Origin: Bdellovibrio sp.
GTDB lineage: Bacteria; Bdellovibrionota; Bacteriovoracia; Bacteriovoracales; Bacteriovoracaceae
Assembly (NCBI GenBank): GCA_022729855.1
Contig: DZBG01000015.1
Span: 1 to 35,692 of the forward strand
Length of the DNA stretch: 35,692 bases
Direction: 5' to 3'
Both the position numbers and the translations under genes were made by a program. Below are positions 18,072-26,463 of this stretch, piece after piece. The notes beneath the pieces were generated by a model that made no database searches, had not been told where the DNA came from, and saw nothing but the letters and a program-made list of their open reading frames with translations. Numbering within the stretch: the stretch's first letter is position 1; every line of letters starts with the position of its first letter.

Positions 18072-19409
18072 TTATTTCGGCTCTAAAACTTCCGTCACAT
18101 GAAATACTTTTCCGCGCCCAGACTTCTTAGACATGTACATCATTCTATCTGCAAAATCGATAATCGCTTTGGCACTTGTTGCGTCTGATGGATACTCGGC
18201 CAAACCAATTGAAAGTGAGAGGCGGTATTTGATTCCACCTTGGATGAGGAACTCTTTATTCTTAACTGATTCAGAAATTCTGAGAGCGATTCTTTTTGTT
18301 TCGTCTAAGTTGGCCTTCGGTAGAAGGACGATGAACTCATCTCCCCCGTAGCGGTAGACAAGATCGCTGGCGCGAAGCTCATGTCTGAGAACCACGGCCA
18401 TATCAATGAGAAGCTGACTTCCGACGATATGTCCGAATTGATCATTTACGTTTTTAAAGAAGTCGATATCGATGAATAAGAGATTAAAGGGTCTGCGCTC
18501 TTGCTGGTACATTTTTATATAATGATCCAGATCGGCCAAAAGCTTTCTTTGGTTATAGGCCCCTGTGACTTCATCAGTGAGAGCGAGATGCTCGACTTGA
18601 TCTCGTTCATCTTTTTGATGAAGACGAGTCAGTGAGGAGTGGATCATGTTTTTTAGATATGGCCCAAAGATCTCATTGATGTCGAATGGTGAATTATTTT
18701 CAGCGGACACAATACTAATTTCATGATTCTGGTGTTTCAGGAGAAAAACAACTTTTGAAGAATTGGCCAGATGGATTCCGAAGATGAGTCCATAAGGATC
18801 AACTAAAAATCTCTGGAGCTTATGATCTTGTTTTTCATTCTTAATCAGACCCATTTCTTTGAGACCTAAACGAAGTTTCGTGGGAGTCTTAAAAAATTTC
18901 TGATCATTAAGAACTAAGAAGTAATTTAAATAATGCCAGAGAACTGATGAGAGCTCTTCTCTTGATTCAAAATGATCAGGTCTCACGAATAAATGTAGGA
19001 CTGCTCTCTCTGGACTTGTGCCCGTTGATGAGTGAGAAGTGGTCATATATTTTAAGCGGATATTAAATTCTTCTAGGTCTTCTTCAAGAATGGGATGAGT
19101 GAGGATATCAAAGATCCCTGTTCTCATGGCACCCATAACTAAAGGGAGCTCAATTTTTGAATGAATCAGAACAATATGGGACTGAGGAAACTGAAGTTTC
19201 AGCTGATTCAGTTCTCTTTTAATTTTTGAAATTTGAATATTAGATTGAACAAAAATGAACTGATAATCTTTTTGTTTTAAAGAATATACTTCTCTAGCGT
19301 TCTCTAGGATCGAGAGTCTGTATTCGATATTAAGATTTTTAAAATTCTTTTTTAACGTTTCTGTGACTTCTGGGTCAGTCCCGATAAAAAGAGTTTGTAT
19401 TACATTCAT
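18072..19409 (-). CDS. diguanylate cyclase with degenerate receiver
   Basis: Predicted 445-residue GGDEF protein synthesising cyclic di-GMP. Residues 1-120 resemble a response-regulator receiver, but the phospho-acceptor position is Gln55 (IFVQS) and the conserved Lys is replaced (THP), so it should not be phosphorylated. A middle region of about 130 residues is unassigned. The C-terminal GGDEF domain has an intact GGDEF at 355-359 and an RASD inhibitory I-site at 346-349, so it is probably active and product-inhibited. It starts 3 bases after the pseudo-receiver coiled-coil gene, implying co-expression and perhaps localisation by it. Confidence 0.88.
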   Translation of the reverse strand: MNVIQTLFIGTDPEVTETLKKNFKNLNIEYRLSILENAREVYSLKQKDYQFIFVQSNIQISKIKRELNQLKLQFPQSHIVLIHSKIELPLVMGAMRTGIFDILTHPILEEDLEEFNIRLKYMTTSHSSTGTSPERAVLHLFVRPDHFESREELSSVLWHYLNYFLVLNDQKFFKTPTKLRLGLKEMGLIKNEKQDHKLQRFLVDPYGLIFGIHLANSSKVVFLLKHQNHEISIVSAENNSPFDINEIFGPYLKNMIHSSLTRLHQKDERDQVEHLALTDEVTGAYNQRKLLADLDHYIKMYQQERRPFNLLFIDIDFFKNVNDQFGHIVGSQLLIDMAVVLRHELRASDLVYRYGGDEFIVLLPKANLDETKRIALRISESVKNKEFLIQGGIKYRLSLSIGLAEYPSDATSAKAIIDFADRMMYMSKKSGRGKVFHVTEVLEPK

Positions 19410-19412
19410 TAA

Positions 19413-21485
19413 CTAAACTTCAATATTCTTTTTTAATTTTTCAAGCACTCTCGCCGCTTCCGAATCATTTTCAAGGATGGTAATCGCCCCTTTTAATGTT
19501 CTGATCGCTTTATCGAGTTTTTGCTCAAGTTCAACTTTTCCTTCAAGAGATTTTTTCTCTTGATGCCCCATACTCTCCATATCAAACTCCATTCCGTCAA
19601 CTCTTCGTTTGAGTTCTAGAATTTTTTGATCTCTATGGCGAATCTGTGTTTCAGCATCAATTTTTAAGAGCTCAAGTTTCTGCTCAAGCTCACGCTCTCT
19701 TCCTTGAACTTTTCTCACGTCGAGACGAGTCTTTTGTGAGACCTTCTCTACTTCGATTTGAAGGGCCTTGTTTTTTTCTTCCAAGATCATCTTCATCTCT
19801 TCATGAATTTTTACTTTATCTTTAAGCTCATTGTTTTCTTCATTGAGCTTCTTCTTAATAATTGTAAGCTCAATTTTCTTCTCATCAAGCTCTGCCCGCA
19901 GACTTAAATTCTGTCTGTGCTGAAGAAGTTTTTCTTCTTCAAGCTTTTGAATTTTATTTAATAATTCTTCTCTATCTACTCGAAGATTAGATAATGTGGC
20001 CGCTAGGCGCTCCATTTCTCCTGAATAGTTCCCGACAATTTCTTTAATGTCTTGATTGAGACTTCTCTCTGGAGCGGCTTCTTGAACTTCCGCTTCTTTC
20101 TTTTTCTTAGCAGGTTTTTTAACCTCAGGTTCTGGACTTGCAAACATATCATCATCAGAACTACTCAGATCAATTTGTCCAAGATCAATATCATCTGAAA
20201 CCAGAGACTCATCAGCTGGGTCTCCCATCATTTCATCAATTTCTTTTAATTTTGCCATCGCATCGTCAGAGAGATCTCCAGAGTCAGGAGCGACTTCCTC
20301 ATCCATGCTAAAGCTGAGATCATCACCAAGTCCTAGACCCAAATCCAGACCAGCATCGAGTTCTGGTTCCGGTGTCACTTCTGGGGCCTCATCCTCTCCG
20401 CCGAGTGAGAAATCAAGGGAATCATCTTCACCAAGTGAATCTGCACTTAATTCAGGAGAAGTGTCTCCCAGACTTAAATCATCTCCACCAAGATCGAGAA
20501 TATCATCATCGGTTCCCACTTCATCACCAAGTGAGAGGTCATCATCAACGCTCAGATCATCAGACAATGATAAATCATCATCTCCTAACGAGAACTGGTC
20601 ATCACCATCATCAGAGAGATCACTGACAGCTAGATCGTCTCCATCCTCAGAAAGACTAAAATCATCTCCACCAGTATCACCTAAACTAAACTCATCATCA
20701 GAATCCATCTGGGCCGATTCAACAACTTCCCCTTCCGCAGAAAGATCAAGCTCTTCAGAATCATCAAGACTCAAATCAAAGCCGCCGTCATCTTCGACAG
20801 TTTCTTCAGATGCAACAATATCGGCACCCAATTCCAAGTCACCTAAATCATCTAGGTCAAGTTCTTGGTCTTTATCACTCATATCATCACCCTCTGAAAG
20901 ATTCACTTCGTCTATAATCGGTTCCTCATCGGGAACCGAGGCGAAGCTACTTACACTTTGAAATTTAATTTTTGATTTTGGAACTATGACAGATTCAAAT
21001 ATTTCATCCAAACTCTGCGACCCATAAGATTTTTTCCACTCATCAAGAGTGCTTAAATTCTGAAGATCATATTTTTTTAAAATATTTTGATTATTATTTT
21101 CTAATCTATTTCCCTTCGTATTCATGTCTTGGGGAGTCAGGGCCAAAAGCATCTGATCAAAATCCGCTGGAGAAATATCAAAGGGAAGATAGGCATCTCC
21201 ACCTACTGTCGACCCTTGGTGATCTTTTAAAATTTGCCCTTCGAATTCTTGACAAAAATAGATAAGTTTAAATTCTTGTTGTTTTTTTATTTGAGTAAGT
21301 TGCTCAATAAAAAAATCCTGTGAATCGAAGTCTATGAAATAAAAAGAAAACTCGCCTGCTAGAGCGGCACTTAGAGTTGATAGTCCTCCACCCTCGGTGC
21401 ACCACTGAGCTTTAGAGAGGACTGAATACTTGTCGAACGTACCCTTGAGTTCCTTGGGTCGTGTCGTAATGATGACGTAGGCCAT
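19413..21485 (-). CDS. pseudo-receiver, acidic-repeat, coiled-coil protein
   Basis: Predicted 690-residue cytosolic protein in three parts. Residues 1-118 look like a receiver fold (FYFIDFDSQD at 49-58, GGDAYLPFD at 95-103) without the usual Lys. Residues about 184-445 are a very acidic Asp/Ser/Leu/Gly tract of loosely repeated DDLSLGDD-like units. Residues about 475-690 form a long coiled coil, preceded by a Lys-rich hinge (456-465). The layout is like the polarity/motility proteins FrzS and AglZ of myxobacteria, though homology is not demonstrated. It is followed after 3 bases by the diguanylate cyclase. Confidence 0.75.
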   Translation of the reverse strand: MAYVIITTRPKELKGTFDKYSVLSKAQWCTEGGGLSTLSAALAGEFSFYFIDFDSQDFFIEQLTQIKKQQEFKLIYFCQEFEGQILKDHQGSTVGGDAYLPFDISPADFDQMLLALTPQDMNTKGNRLENNNQNILKKYDLQNLSTLDEWKKSYGSQSLDEIFESVIVPKSKIKFQSVSSFASVPDEEPIIDEVNLSEGDDMSDKDQELDLDDLGDLELGADIVASEETVEDDGGFDLSLDDSEELDLSAEGEVVESAQMDSDDEFSLGDTGGDDFSLSEDGDDLAVSDLSDDGDDQFSLGDDDLSLSDDLSVDDDLSLGDEVGTDDDILDLGGDDLSLGDTSPELSADSLGEDDSLDFSLGGEDEAPEVTPEPELDAGLDLGLGLGDDLSFSMDEEVAPDSGDLSDDAMAKLKEIDEMMGDPADESLVSDDIDLGQIDLSSSDDDMFASPEPEVKKPAKKKKEAEVQEAAPERSLNQDIKEIVGNYSGEMERLAATLSNLRVDREELLNKIQKLEEEKLLQHRQNLSLRAELDEKKIELTIIKKKLNEENNELKDKVKIHEEMKMILEEKNKALQIEVEKVSQKTRLDVRKVQGRERELEQKLELLKIDAETQIRHRDQKILELKRRVDGMEFDMESMGHQEKKSLEGKVELEQKLDKAIRTLKGAITILENDSEAARVLEKLKKNIEV
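20151..20936 (-). repeat. acidic Asp/Ser/Leu/Gly repeat tract
   Basis: Within the coiled-coil protein gene, this stretch encodes residues about 184-445 as degenerate short repeats (DDLSLGDD, DDEFSLGD, DLGLGLGDD). The DNA is correspondingly repetitive (ATCATC-rich on the plus strand), so recombination-driven length variation between strains is possible. Unlike a CRISPR array it has no regular spacer structure. Confidence 0.7.
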
Positions 21486-21645
21486 ACTCTTTAATCATAA
21501 CCGAATCTTTCAGCAGGATGACATAAGAGTAAAAACAGGCAAAGATTGCATAGTTAAGGGTTTGAAAGATAAGGAGATTCTTTGTTGCTCAGTGACCTTT
21601 ATCCAAGTTAGAATCTTAGTATATCTGTCTCTCTTTGGAGGATTC

Positions 21646-22641
21646 GTGCGTATTTTAATCGCCTACTTACTACTAAGCCTTAGTCTACTTCCCTCGCCGG
21701 CCATGGCCGAGGATAGTGCCTATTACCCATCAAATATTCTTATGCTTGATAGCAAGTTTGCTCACCATGTGATCCTTGTTGAAAAATCAACGCATAAACT
21801 CTATTTGTACGAGAACGATGCCACTAATCCAAAACTGATTAAAAGCTTCCCCATCGCTTCAGGAAAACTTAAAGGCGATAAGGCCAATGAGGGTGATCAC
21901 AGAACTCCAGAAGGCGTTTATACGATTGAAGAGTTTCTTTCAAAAGAAGAGCTTCTTCGTAAACATGGAAGCTATGCTAAAATTTATGGAAGTGGCGCTT
22001 TCCCAATGAACTACCCTAACTTCATGGATGCCATTGAAGGAAAAACTGGCGGAGGAATCTGGTTACACTCAACAGATGATGACTCTCGGGTTTTTAAAGG
22101 CTTAGACTCTCGTGGTTGTGTGGTTGTTCAGAATGCAGACCTTAAAGAAGTTTCTAAGTATATCGAAATTGATAGAACACCCATTATTGTAGTTCAAGAT
22201 GTATTCTTCCTTTCAAAATCAACTTGGGAGAGAAATCGTAAAGACATCAATGAAACAATTCAAAACTGGGGCAAAGCTTGGGAGTCTAAAGATTTTAATA
22301 ACTATATTTCTTACTATGATGAGAATAGCTTTTACGACCGAACGAAAGGTAAATTTAACGCTTACAAAAATTATAAGCGTGCCGTTTTTTCAAGACCTGA
22401 CCCTTGGTCAATTCAATTTGATTTCCTTTCAATTATGACAACAAATGATTATGCCGTGGTTCAACTTCAGCAAAATTATAAATCTTCAGTCATCAACGAT
22501 ATTGGTAAAAAAACTCTTTATCTTAAAAAAGATAAAAACTATGAGTGGAAAATTGTTGGAGAGCTTTTCTCAAAAAATGGCGTTGAAAGCAATATCGCAA
22601 CATTCTCACCCTCAATGAGATTTTTTAAAGAGCAAGAATGA
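21646..22641 (+). CDS. YkuD-NTF2 L,D-carboxypeptidase/transpeptidase (Csd6/Bd1075-like)
   Basis: Predicted 331-residue periplasmic peptidoglycan enzyme. Signal peptide is at residues 1-21 (ending PAMA). The YkuD catalytic domain spans about 38-185, with His141 in IWLHSTDDD and Cys158 in the SRGC motif. A C-terminal NTF2-like domain spans about 200-322. This architecture is shared by Csd6 (Helicobacter), Pgp2 (Campylobacter) and Bd1075 (Bdellovibrio), L,D-carboxypeptidases that trim tetrapeptides and set cell curvature. The GTG at 21646 is chosen because GGAGG lies 4 bases upstream and the signal peptide then begins correctly; an in-frame upstream start would add 28 residues. It overlaps the next gene as ATGA. 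Confidence 0.85.
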   Translation: MRILIAYLLLSLSLLPSPAMAEDSAYYPSNILMLDSKFAHHVILVEKSTHKLYLYENDATNPKLIKSFPIASGKLKGDKANEGDHRTPEGVYTIEEFLSKEELLRKHGSYAKIYGSGAFPMNYPNFMDAIEGKTGGGIWLHSTDDDSRVFKGLDSRGCVVVQNADLKEVSKYIEIDRTPIIVVQDVFFLSKSTWERNRKDINETIQNWGKAWESKDFNNYISYYDENSFYDRTKGKFNAYKNYKRAVFSRPDPWSIQFDFLSIMTTNDYAVVQLQQNYKSSVINDIGKKTLYLKKDKNYEWKIVGELFSKNGVESNIATFSPSMRFFKEQE

Positions 22642-23393
22642 ATTCATTAGAAGAAAAGTCTGACGAAGTTTCAATTGTTATTTACGATGCTCCTCGGCCA
22701 CCAAGATACCTTAAGTTCAATAAGTCTTTCTTAAGCTGGATGCTTTATGGTGTTCCAACAGTGATTGGAATCATCATCAGTGCCTCAGTTGTGATGGCCC
22801 TTCTTCCAAGAAAAGGCTCTACCAGTTTTTCGACTCCATCACTTCAGCTTCCAACGAACATGAATGAAAAGAGTGATGAACTAAAAATGAAAGAAGCGAG
22901 TGCTCAAATTAGAGAACTTGAAGTTGAAAATCAAAAACTGCAAGAGAAGCTTGCGGGGACCCCAGCGGAAGGAAGTGATATCTATTTCGGACAAATTCTG
23001 CGTCCTTATGGTTCACAGAATTTAACTGAAAAAAGTTTACTTCAACTTGAGCAGATTGATTTTACAAGTGACTCAAAGAAGATGGTTCTTAATTTTCAAA
23101 TTATCAATCCTCATCCTGAAGCAAGAGTCACAGGCCATATTATTGTTTTTGAGTACTCGGGCCTTGAAACAAGAGTTTACCCAGGCGTTCTTCAAAACAG
23201 TGCAATTGAAGGAATTAAATTTTCACAAGGTGAAGGTTTTGCAGTTTCAAGACTTCGCCCTACAACGGCTGAATTCTCGGGAATACCGACATCGAACAAA
23301 GTAAAATTTGTTATCTATATTTTTAATCGTGAAGGTGACTTACTTGTTAAGCATGTCACTCGTGATTTTGAAATGACCACTAAGGCACAATAA
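22638..23393 (+). CDS. single-pass membrane protein of the bactofilin operon
   Basis: Predicted 251-residue protein not recognised by family. A short cytosolic N-terminus ends in a membrane helix at about residues 37-57. A short coiled coil follows (about 80-112, ELEVENQKLQEKL), and then a periplasmic beta-rich domain to the end. It is coupled on both sides: its ATG overlaps the YkuD gene stop as ATGA, and its TAA shares a base with the bactofilin ATG. Topology suits a bridge between cytosolic bactofilin and the periplasmic hydrolase. That role is inference. Confidence 0.75.
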   Translation: MNSLEEKSDEVSIVIYDAPRPPRYLKFNKSFLSWMLYGVPTVIGIIISASVVMALLPRKGSTSFSTPSLQLPTNMNEKSDELKMKEASAQIRELEVENQKLQEKLAGTPAEGSDIYFGQILRPYGSQNLTEKSLLQLEQIDFTSDSKKMVLNFQIINPHPEARVTGHIIVFEYSGLETRVYPGVLQNSAIEGIKFSQGEGFAVSRLRPTTAEFSGIPTSNKVKFVIYIFNREGDLLVKHVTRDFEMTTKAQ

Positions 23394-23734
23394 TGGAAGA
23401 GCTAGACTTTAAGACCTATCACTATAATGTTGTCGGAATTGAATCAGAGATGACTGGGGTTCTTAAGCTTAAAGGTGACACAATCTTTAATGGCACTATC
23501 GATGGTGAACTTCACTTAGCTGAAGGCAAACTTGTTCTTGAACGAGGAAGTAAAATCAAAGGTAAAGTCATCGGACATGAAATTGAAGTTTTCGGTGAGA
23601 TTAACGGAGACATCATCTGTACTGGTAAGCTTTCTTTTAGATCATCTGCTAAATTTGATGGGGATATTAAATCAAATTCTCTGGTTATTTATCCTGGGGC
23701 CCAAGTCAATATGCATGCTCAGGCCCAGGATTAA
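23393..23734 (+). CDS. bactofilin
   Basis: Predicted 113-residue cytoskeletal protein of the bactofilin (DUF583) family. The whole chain is a run of short beta strands with regular Gly and small hydrophobic positions (GDTIFNGTIDGELHLAEGKL, then IEVFGEINGDIICTGKL), the right-handed beta-helix pattern of the family. Bactofilins polymerise without nucleotide and recruit peptidoglycan enzymes that shape the cell. It is the last gene of the coupled operon with the YkuD-NTF2 enzyme. Its stop is 3 bases from the stop of a convergent protease gene. Confidence 0.92.
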   Translation: MEELDFKTYHYNVVGIESEMTGVLKLKGDTIFNGTIDGELHLAEGKLVLERGSKIKGKVIGHEIEVFGEINGDIICTGKLSFRSSAKFDGDIKSNSLVIYPGAQVNMHAQAQD

Positions 23735-23737
23735 TTC

Positions 23738-25096
23738 TTAAAGATATTTTTTATAATCAACTATTGTAACTGGCGCAATTTTCTTAAGAGACTTCTCAAG
23801 ACTTTTACTCCCCACAACAACAATCACCTGACGATCCCATTGAAACAACTCTCCTACACCAGCAGCTAATTCAGAAGGTGTAATAGACTTAATTTTCTCA
23901 GGGAAACTAGCAAGTTCAGTGAGTGGTCGACCTTGAAGATCATACATAAAGACCTGTGATAAGAAGGCCTCAGACTGCTCAAATTGAAAAGCATAGCCAC
24001 CAACTAAATGTCCAAGTTGATGTTCATATTCTTTCTGAGCAATCCCTTTGTCTTTAATTTCAGTTAAAATATTTTTGATCACTTCAATCGTCTCGGCCAC
24101 AGTTTCATTCTTTGAAAAAGTTGTGATCCCTGCTCGTCCATAAACACCTTGAACCGAGGCATAAGCTCCTGCTGAATAAGTCAGACCTCTTTTCACACGA
24201 ATCTCTTGGATAAGTTTAGAAGTGAAACCTCCACCTAAATACGAGCTTACAAAATTATAAAGATCATTTTTTCCAGCAAATTCATGTTCAGTCAGATAAC
24301 GACCTAGACGGATTTGCGCCTGATTGGCCTCAGGAACTGGGACTAAAATGATTCTTCCCACTTTTCCTGAATCATTCAGACTCAATTTTTTAAGGGCTTC
24401 TTTCTCAACTGTCTTCCACCCACACTTAGCAATGGTTTTTTCAATTGATAAAACATCCTTAGGTCCAGTGATATAAAGAGTTTTCGGTGAATTTTTTAAA
24501 CTCGCAAGCCTAGACATTAAATTGTCTGTTTTAAGTTTTTGAATGCTCTTAAGAGTTCCTTCAGCAGGAGAACTAAAAGGAGTTGTGCTCAATGATTCTT
24601 GTCTAAAAACACGATCGGCCAGGGCGGCATGTGAAGTCACAATACTCTTAATCTTACTTTGTTCGCGAGACAGGAGTGATTTAACTTCATTTGATGGATA
24701 GTTTGCTTCATCCAAAAGATGGCAAACTCTTTCCATAATAATGTCGGCATCTTTAACAAGTCCCGTGACTGAGATTGATGAGTATTCATGAGTCACTGAA
24801 GTTTTAGTACTCACACCGTAGAATTCAAAAAAATCATTCAACTCATTTTGATTATACTTTTTTGTTCCGGCCGTTAAAAAATCGAGAGCAAAATGTGTTT
24901 GTCCCTCAAGACCTTTCTCGTCTGAGAGGGCCCCATCTTTAAAAACGAGTGACCATGTATATTTGGGAAACTTTTCATCACGGATCCAAACAACATCGAG
25001 CTCTCCCCACTTCATTCTTTTAACTGAATCAACCCATTCAGTATTGGCCATGACAGGAAGAGAGAACATAAAGAGAAGATATAATATTTTTTTCAT
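23738..25096 (-). CDS. M16-family protease homologue, non-catalytic
   Basis: Predicted 452-residue exported protein with a signal peptide (residues 1-17, ending VMA). It has the two-repeat M16 fold, with the C-terminal half carrying a recognisable GGGFTSKLIQEIRVKRGLTYS motif that binds substrate in M16 proteins. The zinc HXXEH motif is absent: the corresponding segment reads EGQTHFALDFLTAG, so it is probably the structural partner of the catalytic subunit encoded 8 bases upstream at 25105-26463. The two likely form a periplasmic heterodimer. Confidence 0.85.
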   Translation of the reverse strand: MKKILYLLFMFSLPVMANTEWVDSVKRMKWGELDVVWIRDEKFPKYTWSLVFKDGALSDEKGLEGQTHFALDFLTAGTKKYNQNELNDFFEFYGVSTKTSVTHEYSSISVTGLVKDADIIMERVCHLLDEANYPSNEVKSLLSREQSKIKSIVTSHAALADRVFRQESLSTTPFSSPAEGTLKSIQKLKTDNLMSRLASLKNSPKTLYITGPKDVLSIEKTIAKCGWKTVEKEALKKLSLNDSGKVGRIILVPVPEANQAQIRLGRYLTEHEFAGKNDLYNFVSSYLGGGFTSKLIQEIRVKRGLTYSAGAYASVQGVYGRAGITTFSKNETVAETIEVIKNILTEIKDKGIAQKEYEHQLGHLVGGYAFQFEQSEAFLSQVFMYDLQGRPLTELASFPEKIKSITPSELAAGVGELFQWDRQVIVVVGSKSLEKSLKKIAPVTIVDYKKYL

Positions 25097-25104
25097 TTTA
25101 ATTC

Positions 25105-26463
25105 CTAGTTTTTATTTTTTTCCCAAACAGTGATAAAAAGTGAAGGCTCCTTCACTAACTCTTGGCATACCGCCTTCACATCACCCACGCCAATAGCAGC
25201 ATAGATCGCAAGCTCTTCTTTATAGGCCTTATAATCTCCATAGAATGTGTGTCTCTCACCTAAAAATGAAGCCAGCCCTGCATTTGTATCAAGCCCCTTG
25301 TATACATCTAAAAGATAATTGTTTTTTACTTTCATGATGGCGTGTTCGGTAATTTCACTCTCACAAGCAAGGGCCAATTCAGACTGAACCGTTTTCTTGA
25401 ACTCAGCTAGCTTCACACCTTTCACTAACTCTCCACCAAGAAAAAAAACTCCTGATTTCTCAAGAGTGTAATTTCCTGCATAAATTGATGAGGCCATTGG
25501 TTTTTTCACAAGGACATAACGCTTTTTAAGAAATGAGCTGTCCCCATCTCCTAGAACCGAACCTAAAATATCAAGAGCATAAGATTTTGGATGTCCGTGT
25601 GCATATGAAGGATACGACATCATGAACATAGGTTGCGGAGTTGCCCCTTTAAGATGAACTTCACGGTCTTTTACGAGCTCAGACTTAAACATCGCAGGAG
25701 TTAAGCTATCATGCTCTCCTTGAACTGAAGGAGAAGAAGCAATCTTTCCAAATTTTTCTTCAATCATTTTGCGAGTTTTAGAAGATTTGATATCTCCCAC
25801 GATCACCATCGTGACATTATTAGGGGCATAGAATTTTTTGAAGTATGCAAAAATTTGCTCACGTGAAACTGATTTCAGATCAGGGATATTTCCAATAACC
25901 GATGTTCCATAAGGAGTTCCCTTAAAAACTTCGGCCATCATCTGCATAAATAATTGTCCACGTGGAGAATTCTCGTAACGCATTTTACGTTCTTCAAGAA
26001 CCACTGATCTCTCTTTTTCGAAATCATCAGGCTTTAAGAGTAAGTTCTCCATTCTGTCGGCTTCAATATCAAGCATGATATCAAGCTGACTTGAAGGAAG
26101 GTTCTCATAGTAAACAGTAAGATCATTAGTCGTATAAGCGTTGGTTGATCCCCCACTACCTTCAATCGTAAAATCGATAATTCCCGGGCCGTATTTTTTT
26201 GCTCCCTTAAACATCATGTGTTCAAGAAAGTGACTGGCCCCTGTGATTCCTGGATGCTCATTCTTACCACCAACTTTATAAAACATATAAAGTGAGAAGA
26301 TAGGTAGTTTAGGATTTTCTACCATCAATACTGTGAGTCCATTTTCGAGCTTGACCTCTTGGACATCAATATCAATTTCAATATCAGCAAGACCAGTTTT
26401 CGGTTTGTGATTGGCACAACTCATGGCCAGAACCAGCGGGAGAAAGAGCATAAACTTCATCAT
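25105..26463 (-). CDS. M16 zinc metalloprotease, catalytic subunit
   Basis: Predicted 452-residue pitrilysin/PqqL-type protease. The zinc motif HFLEH is at residues 78-82 and the third ligand is likely in the LDIEADRM segment further on, as in family members. The N-terminus is a signal sequence with Cys16 in AMSC, a weak lipobox, so it may be a lipoprotein. AAGGA sits 5 bases before the ATG pair. It is the first gene of a two-gene operon with the non-catalytic homologue and is divergent from the alanine dehydrogenase gene. Substrate is unknown. Confidence 0.9.
   Translation of the reverse strand: MMKFMLFLPLVLAMSCANHKPKTGLADIEIDIDVQEVKLENGLTVLMVENPKLPIFSLYMFYKVGGKNEHPGITGASHFLEHMMFKGAKKYGPGIIDFTIEGSGGSTNAYTTNDLTVYYENLPSSQLDIMLDIEADRMENLLLKPDDFEKERSVVLEERKMRYENSPRGQLFMQMMAEVFKGTPYGTSVIGNIPDLKSVSREQIFAYFKKFYAPNNVTMVIVGDIKSSKTRKMIEEKFGKIASSPSVQGEHDSLTPAMFKSELVKDREVHLKGATPQPMFMMSYPSYAHGHPKSYALDILGSVLGDGDSSFLKKRYVLVKKPMASSIYAGNYTLEKSGVFFLGGELVKGVKLAEFKKTVQSELALACESEITEHAIMKVKNNYLLDVYKGLDTNAGLASFLGERHTFYGDYKAYKEELAIYAAIGVGDVKAVCQELVKEPSLFITVWEKNKN

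Follow-up and report, generated by a model that had tools for sequence, protein, structure and literature searches.

Three tightly packed genes on a Bdellovibrio sp. contig probably encode one envelope-spanning cell-shape module. They lie on the plus strand of the window (the whole 35,692-nucleotide stretch that was analyzed; assembly GCA_022729855.1, contig DZBG01000015.1) in the order LD-carboxypeptidase (LDC), linker, bactofilin. The linker would be an enzyme-free adaptor resembling LmdC that is recruited by bactofilin and docks the LDC. The evidence consists of the gene order and coupling, a co-loss of all three genes, natural domain fusions, the architecture of the proteins, and hairpin and transmembrane sequence shared with M23 proteins of the LmdC architecture. 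In the mechanism we propose, bactofilin would polymerize in the cytoplasm and hold the linker through a cytosolic beta-hairpin, as bactofilins hold LmdC. The linker would span the inner membrane once, with its coiled coil and Ig-like domain extending into the periplasm, and there the Ig-like domain would dock, steer, or activate the soluble LDC. Tetrapeptides would be trimmed by the LDC where bactofilin sits, leading to curvature. By analogy with Bd1075, we infer that the trio affects cell shape.

Table 1. Coordinates of the three genes and of the domains and elements within them
Feature	Position in window	Strand	Basis or remark
LDC gene (gene 1)	21646..22641	+	YkuD and NTF2-like Cds6_C domains; predicted secreted LD-carboxypeptidase
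Probable Sec signal peptide of LDC	21646..21708	+	VRILIAYLLLSLSLLPSPAMA, followed by ED after the cleavage point; read by eye from the sequence
YkuD catalytic domain of LDC, residues 41-182	21766..22191	+	Pfam
NTF2-like Cds6_C domain of LDC, residues 201-306	22246..22563	+	Pfam
Linker gene (gene 2)	22638..23393	+	Single-pass membrane adaptor (predicted); without Pfam family
Cytosolic beta-hairpin of linker, residues 10-28	22665..22721	+	AlphaFold; proposed bactofilin-binding element
Transmembrane helix of linker, residues 29-55	22722..22802	+	AlphaFold
Coiled coil of linker, residues 77-106	22866..22955	+	AlphaFold
Periplasmic Ig-like beta domain of linker, residues 130-242	23025..23363	+	AlphaFold; proposed LDC docking domain
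Bactofilin gene (gene 3)	23393..23734	+	Pfam Bactofilin 2e-18

The initial annotation had described three overlapping genes, the first built like Csd6, Pgp2, and Bd1075, the last a bactofilin, and the middle one encoding a single-pass protein with a coiled coil and a periplasmic domain. All three open reading frames were found in the window, and both overlaps could be read directly from its sequence as ATGA (LDC/linker, 22638-22641) and TAATG (linker/bactofilin, 23391-23395). Pfam domains and the nearest solved structures bore out the description of gene 1, Pfam that of gene 3, and an AlphaFold model supported the predicted topology of the middle protein. The best start for the LDC gene is a GTG at 21646 with GGAGGA on its 5' side (21637-21642); mechanical open reading frame calling lengthens the gene to a TTG at 21562. 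A promoter scan found none. The operon is flanked on its 5' side by a divergent gene, here termed U1 (19413-21485, minus strand), and on its 3' side by two convergent M16 peptidase genes (23738-26463, minus strand).

The linker matched no Pfam family and points to a protein family without a Pfam name so far. Its structure was predicted with AlphaFold using 46 relatives, with a pLDDT of 88. In this model, the hairpin is formed by strands at residues 10-17 and 20-28 (pLDDT 92-94 in these blocks), and the strands of the periplasmic beta sandwich span about residues 136-240. Foldseek matched the periplasmic domain weakly to Ig/FnIII-like folds. Two other leads to the kinship of the linker were rejected: sequence matches to solved structures were coiled-coil noise alone, and DUF6776 of gammaproteobacteria was absent both from the Pfam matches and from papers.

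The closest known system is the bactofilin-LmdC module of Hyphomonas neptunium and Rhodospirillum rubrum, in which BacA works with the M23 endopeptidase LmdC (PMC10945521). Like the predicted linker, LmdC is bitopic, its single transmembrane helix joining a beta-hairpin in the cytosol to a coiled coil in the periplasm; it too is encoded in an operon overlapping a bactofilin gene, and its module controls cell shape. LmdC contacts bactofilin via its cytosolic tail in both species, with a KD of ~15 µM in H. neptunium, and substitutions in the beta-hairpin of R. rubrum LmdC abolish recruitment (PMC10945521). However, the linker is not an LmdC, because it is without an M23 domain (no Pfam domain was matched and the predicted fold is Ig-like). 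Where LmdC carries its C-terminal M23 domain, the linker has a nonenzymatic Ig-like domain, and the enzymatic part falls to a separate LD-carboxypeptidase, elsewhere fused to the linker domain.

We searched a profile of the linker hairpin and transmembrane helix against 7,683 distinct open reading frames from the collected loci. With the linkers and one truncated linker set aside, the best matches were to proteins at loci L163, L305, and L301 (modest E values of 3e-5 to 8e-4, with noise from 0.01 up). Those of L301 and L305 (the same as L338/L344) are Pfam M23 peptidases encoded 55 and 15 nt upstream of bactofilin, that of L163 is an M23 protein as judged by its sequence, and all three share the LmdC architecture. 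A profile of the hairpin alone did not match the M23 proteins significantly among the same open reading frames. The hairpin and transmembrane anchor of the linker is therefore likely, but not proven, to be homologous to that of LmdC-type M23 peptidases, since the hairpin by itself is too short to find them. By analogy with LmdC, the hairpin would bind the operon bactofilin in the source organism.

The operon bactofilin contains the bactofilin beta-helix domain (PF04519), with a match above the curated cutoff. A membrane-targeting sequence of the MFSKxxK type was absent from the window bactofilin, which has an acidic N-terminus, and from most of 34 operon bactofilins; such an N-terminus is common but not universal among bactofilins and is not required for membership. 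The 34 N-termini were mostly neutral or acidic, with a mean net charge of -1.1. Bactofilins without a membrane-targeting peptide may get to the membrane via partner proteins (PMC12448750). The absence of the peptide is compatible with the linker as membrane anchor, though not proof of it. A second bactofilin in genomes of the family is a different gene, located directly 3' of parB.

The initial annotation had called for a check of whether the gene order is conserved among relatives; it proved to be near-universal in the family, was lost as a unit once, and recurs in another phylum. Within the family (Bacteriovoracaceae/Halobacteriovoraceae), 115 of 129 genomes, 45 of 48 genera, and 70 of 73 near-complete genomes had the linker. 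It was followed by the bactofilin in all 90 loci read and preceded by the LDC in all but two, where the contig ends. Wherever the contig was long enough, the trio lay on the same strand in the same order. The LDC-linker gap was -4 to +5 nt in 68/89 loci and the linker-bactofilin gap -4 to +3 nt in 62/91, counts that take in the window twice. As an exception, one metagenome-assembled genome (MAG) of the family has a divergent LDC that adjoins neither linker nor bactofilin. Chance is very unlikely to account for this arrangement of the trio.

Synteny in the family extends to the flanking genes (U1 in 84/84 loci, GGDEF in 78/82, and M16 in 70/84), and conservation of the trio inside the family is therefore partly background. 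Indeed, with flanks conserved almost like the trio itself, and flanking linker-bactofilin pairs in other families as well, the three genes could be co-regulated without being physically joined, the linker acting separately and the conservation reflecting a generally stable neighborhood. We consider this unlikely, since one genus, g27, speaks against a stable-neighborhood reading. Linker, LDC, and every type of bactofilin are absent from its four genomes (88 to 99% complete, three of them 94 to 99%). At the syntenic locus both flanks are intact: a gene matching the M16 gene at 23738-25096 adjoins a gene matching U1, separated by ~90-120 bp in two genomes and by a single unrelated small open reading frame in the others. 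This is one evolutionary event that deleted exactly the trio and kept its flanks. In addition, LDC-linker adjacency occurs independently in other phyla, and natural fusions of LDC and linker domain, described below, speak against mere co-regulation. We accepted only g27 as a loss of the trio because the other linker-less genomes were less complete and had a broken or unfound locus; in two of them the contig breaks at the site, and in six of the nine checked no flanking M16 gene passed the cutoff used.

Outside the family, two arrangements were seen in Bdellovibrionota. In other families (f20-f27), the linker adjoins the bactofilin, the LDC is located elsewhere in the genome, and many of the loci are flanked by U1, GGDEF, and M16 genes as in the window. 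In Bdellovibrionaceae-like families, no linker was found, and the LDC is a solitary gene that in most cases diverges from a small gene and an M16 pair. Linker candidates from two of these families (f3 and f10) were rejected as partial coiled-coil or transmembrane matches, one of them being the LmdC-type M23 protein at L163.

Beyond Bdellovibrionota, a search with the LDC found LDC-linker pairs in a KSB1 MAG, in deltaproteobacterial MAGs, and in one further bacterium, and the next gene in three of four such pairs encoded a Peptidase_M99 of the Csd4/Pgp1 family. Linker operons in other phyla thus resemble the Csd4/Pgp1 systems of Helicobacter and Campylobacter in including this type of M99 carboxypeptidase; M99 was essentially absent from a sample of Bacteriovoracaceae. 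In the phylum around locus L250, 40 of 297 genomes had the linker, and 27 of the 30 loci read adjoin an LDC, an M99, and/or a bactofilin; the remaining 3 loci have none of these. The commonest arrangement was LDC-linker-M99 without an adjacent bactofilin (17/30, one with a split M99). Linker-bactofilin pairs accounted for 5/30 and LDC-linker-bactofilin for 2/30, one of which (L326) carries an M23 peptidase gene between linker and bactofilin, giving a four-gene cluster. A bactofilin gene, an LDC fused to a linker domain, and an M99 gene follow one another in 3/30.

These fusions join the LDC and the periplasmic domain of the linker in one chain. The fusion protein of L234 has 542 residues and reads signal sequence, YkuD, NTF2, spacer, and linker periplasmic domain, with a linker profile match of 3e-15 over residues 427-540. 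Its gene starts 6 nt 3' of a bactofilin gene that follows parB. Loci L317 and L321 encode the same fusion, L317 with a full linker after it as well, and all three have a bactofilin gene directly upstream and an M99 gene downstream. The fusions retain the periplasmic domain of the linker alone, without hairpin and transmembrane helix, and they put that domain together with the enzyme in the periplasm. Backed by them, we propose that the linker docks the LDC in the source organism. The initial annotation had taken the middle protein for a linker; this is now supported from both ends, by a hairpin that corresponds to the bactofilin-binding element of LmdC (PMC10945521) and by a periplasmic domain that other genomes encode in fusion with the LDC.

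The same fusions, together with the prevalence of LDC-linker-M99 loci without adjacent bactofilin in the phylum around L250, would also suit a linker that mainly serves wall carboxypeptidases (LDC and M99/Csd4) in the periplasm, as their partner or as an allosteric regulator, its tie to bactofilin being secondary or lineage specific. This is improbable given that linker-bactofilin pairs without an LDC are common in Bdellovibrionota and recur in the phylum around L250, that free-standing linkers retain the hairpin, and that even the fusion genes still adjoin bactofilin. With the linker as an adaptor between bactofilin and LDC, a wider view can be put forward tentatively, and we hold it to be possible: hairpin and transmembrane helix may form a general bactofilin plug that carries interchangeable periplasmic modules, either an M23 domain, as in LmdC, or an Ig-like domain capturing a diffusible LDC and possibly a Csd4-type carboxypeptidase. 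If this is true, the linker founds an unnamed adaptor family that places Csd6/Bd1075-class enzymes by bactofilin across several phyla.

The LDC matched the Pfam families YkuD (4e-20) and Cds6_C (NTF2-like; 7e-18). Its nearest solved structure was 7O21 (Bd1075 of Bdellovibrio bacteriovorus; 1.9e-50), followed by Csd6 (4XZZ) and Pgp2 (6XJ6). Catalytic His141 (22066-22068) and Cys158 (22117-22119) were invariant among 34 relatives and align to 7O21. Judged by sequence, gene 1 therefore has what characterizes an LD-carboxypeptidase of the Csd6/Pgp2/Bd1075 type, namely, YkuD followed by Cds6_C with the catalytic His and Cys. YkuD domains span LD-carboxypeptidase, L,D-transpeptidase, and DpaA-like activities, and homology alone leaves the reaction of gene 1 unfixed, but it is very doubtful that gene 1 encodes an L,D-transpeptidase or releases lipoproteins from peptidoglycan in the manner of DpaA, since it aligns near full length to Bd1075 with the same two-domain architecture and its active site, RGCVV, has as in Bd1075 a V two residues past the Cys, where most transpeptidases have R and Csd6, Pgp2, and YafK have A. 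One difference from Bd1075 is that the window LDC has Phe where the family consensus Trp aligns with W303.

A conserved tail, FxPSxRFF, follows the NTF2 domain of the LDC in the family (22564-22638 in the window) and is absent from Bd1075-like enzymes. We rejected it as a strict linker-docking motif because the pairing of tail and linker is broken on both sides, by a linker without the tail (L228) and by tails without an adjacent linker (L266 and L267).

Bd1075 has LD-carboxypeptidase activity and produces curvature, and bd1075 was reported as monocistronic (PMC8938487). Gene 1 shares the enzyme class, both domains, and the catalytic residues of Bd1075, whereas the bd1075 locus has neither linker nor bactofilin and Bd1075 is targeted via its own NTF2 domain. 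One LDC from the Bdellovibrionaceae-like families aligned to the entire 7O21 chain with a score of 733 bits; the published Bd1075 itself is therefore without a linker. Since Bd1075 is a proven curvature enzyme, this enzyme class can do without the linker. The operon LDC is likewise of the class of Csd6 and Pgp2 from Helicobacter and Campylobacter. Csd6 apparently binds none of CcmA, Csd5, and Csd7, and no such adaptor has been reported for it (PMC9507126), in contrast to the LDC here, which has a linker encoded beside it.

The initial annotation had suggested that the trio forms an undescribed complex. The general principle of joining bactofilin to a wall enzyme through a bitopic protein is already known from LmdC, PbpC, and Csd5/Csd7; an adaptor specific to an LDC does appear to be undescribed. 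Csd5 and Csd7 are transmembrane, nonenzymatic partners of the bactofilin CcmA with a similar role in joining bactofilin to wall enzymes, and Csd7 stabilizes Csd1 (PMC9507126). By their descriptions they differ from the linker, Csd5 having an SH3 domain and Csd7 serving an M23 enzyme. No account of this operon turned up in a collection of largely open-access papers searched for bactofilin with YkuD, LD-carboxypeptidase, or Bd1075. The authors of the Bd1075 study stated that, to their knowledge, the mechanistic basis for targeting curvature enzymes was not known (PMC8938487). The operon offers a concrete candidate mechanism for aiming enzymes of the Csd6/Pgp2/Bd1075 class to one side of the cell, with a candidate adaptor whose cytosolic hairpin is of a type known to bind bactofilin and whose periplasmic domain occurs in natural fusions with the enzyme. 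Its relatives in other phyla suggest a general, unnamed way of aiming cell-shape enzymes, and their gene clusters join three shape-enzyme classes (Csd6, Csd4, and LmdC-type M23) with bactofilin outside Helicobacter.

Several further observations concern neighboring genes and related loci. U1, which adjoins the trio in all of the family loci counted and lies near linker-bactofilin pairs in other families, encodes 690 amino acids with an N-terminus resembling a degenerate receiver domain, acidic repeats, and a coiled coil. It had no Pfam or PDB matches; its layout presumably recalls AglZ/FrzS. The GGDEF diguanylate cyclase gene (18072-19409, minus strand) adjoins U1 and is also found near linker-bactofilin pairs in other families. 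M16 genes flank the lone LDC in Bdellovibrionaceae-like genomes and the linker-bactofilin pair at five loci of another phylum (L328, L329, L331, L332, and L334); the M16 association predates the family.

Two genomes of family f26 (loci L266, L267, and L195) carry an additional LDC that closely resembles the Bacteriovoracaceae type (E value of ~1e-138) without an adjoining linker or bactofilin, for which transfer of the LDC gene alone or MAG mixing are candidate explanations. An in-frame stop breaks the LDC of one near-complete genome (G140; L279/L349) from the genus that bears Bd1075. Finally, a Csd6-type LDC lies near a Csd4-type M99 at seven loci (L236, L239, L240, L245, L249, L250, and L259), the two genes being mostly adjacent or having a linker between them. 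MAGs with LDC/M99 pairs are labeled Aminicenantes, Latescibacterota, Nitrospirae, KSB1, and Deltaproteobacteria, which places pairs of these shape enzymes outside Campylobacterota.
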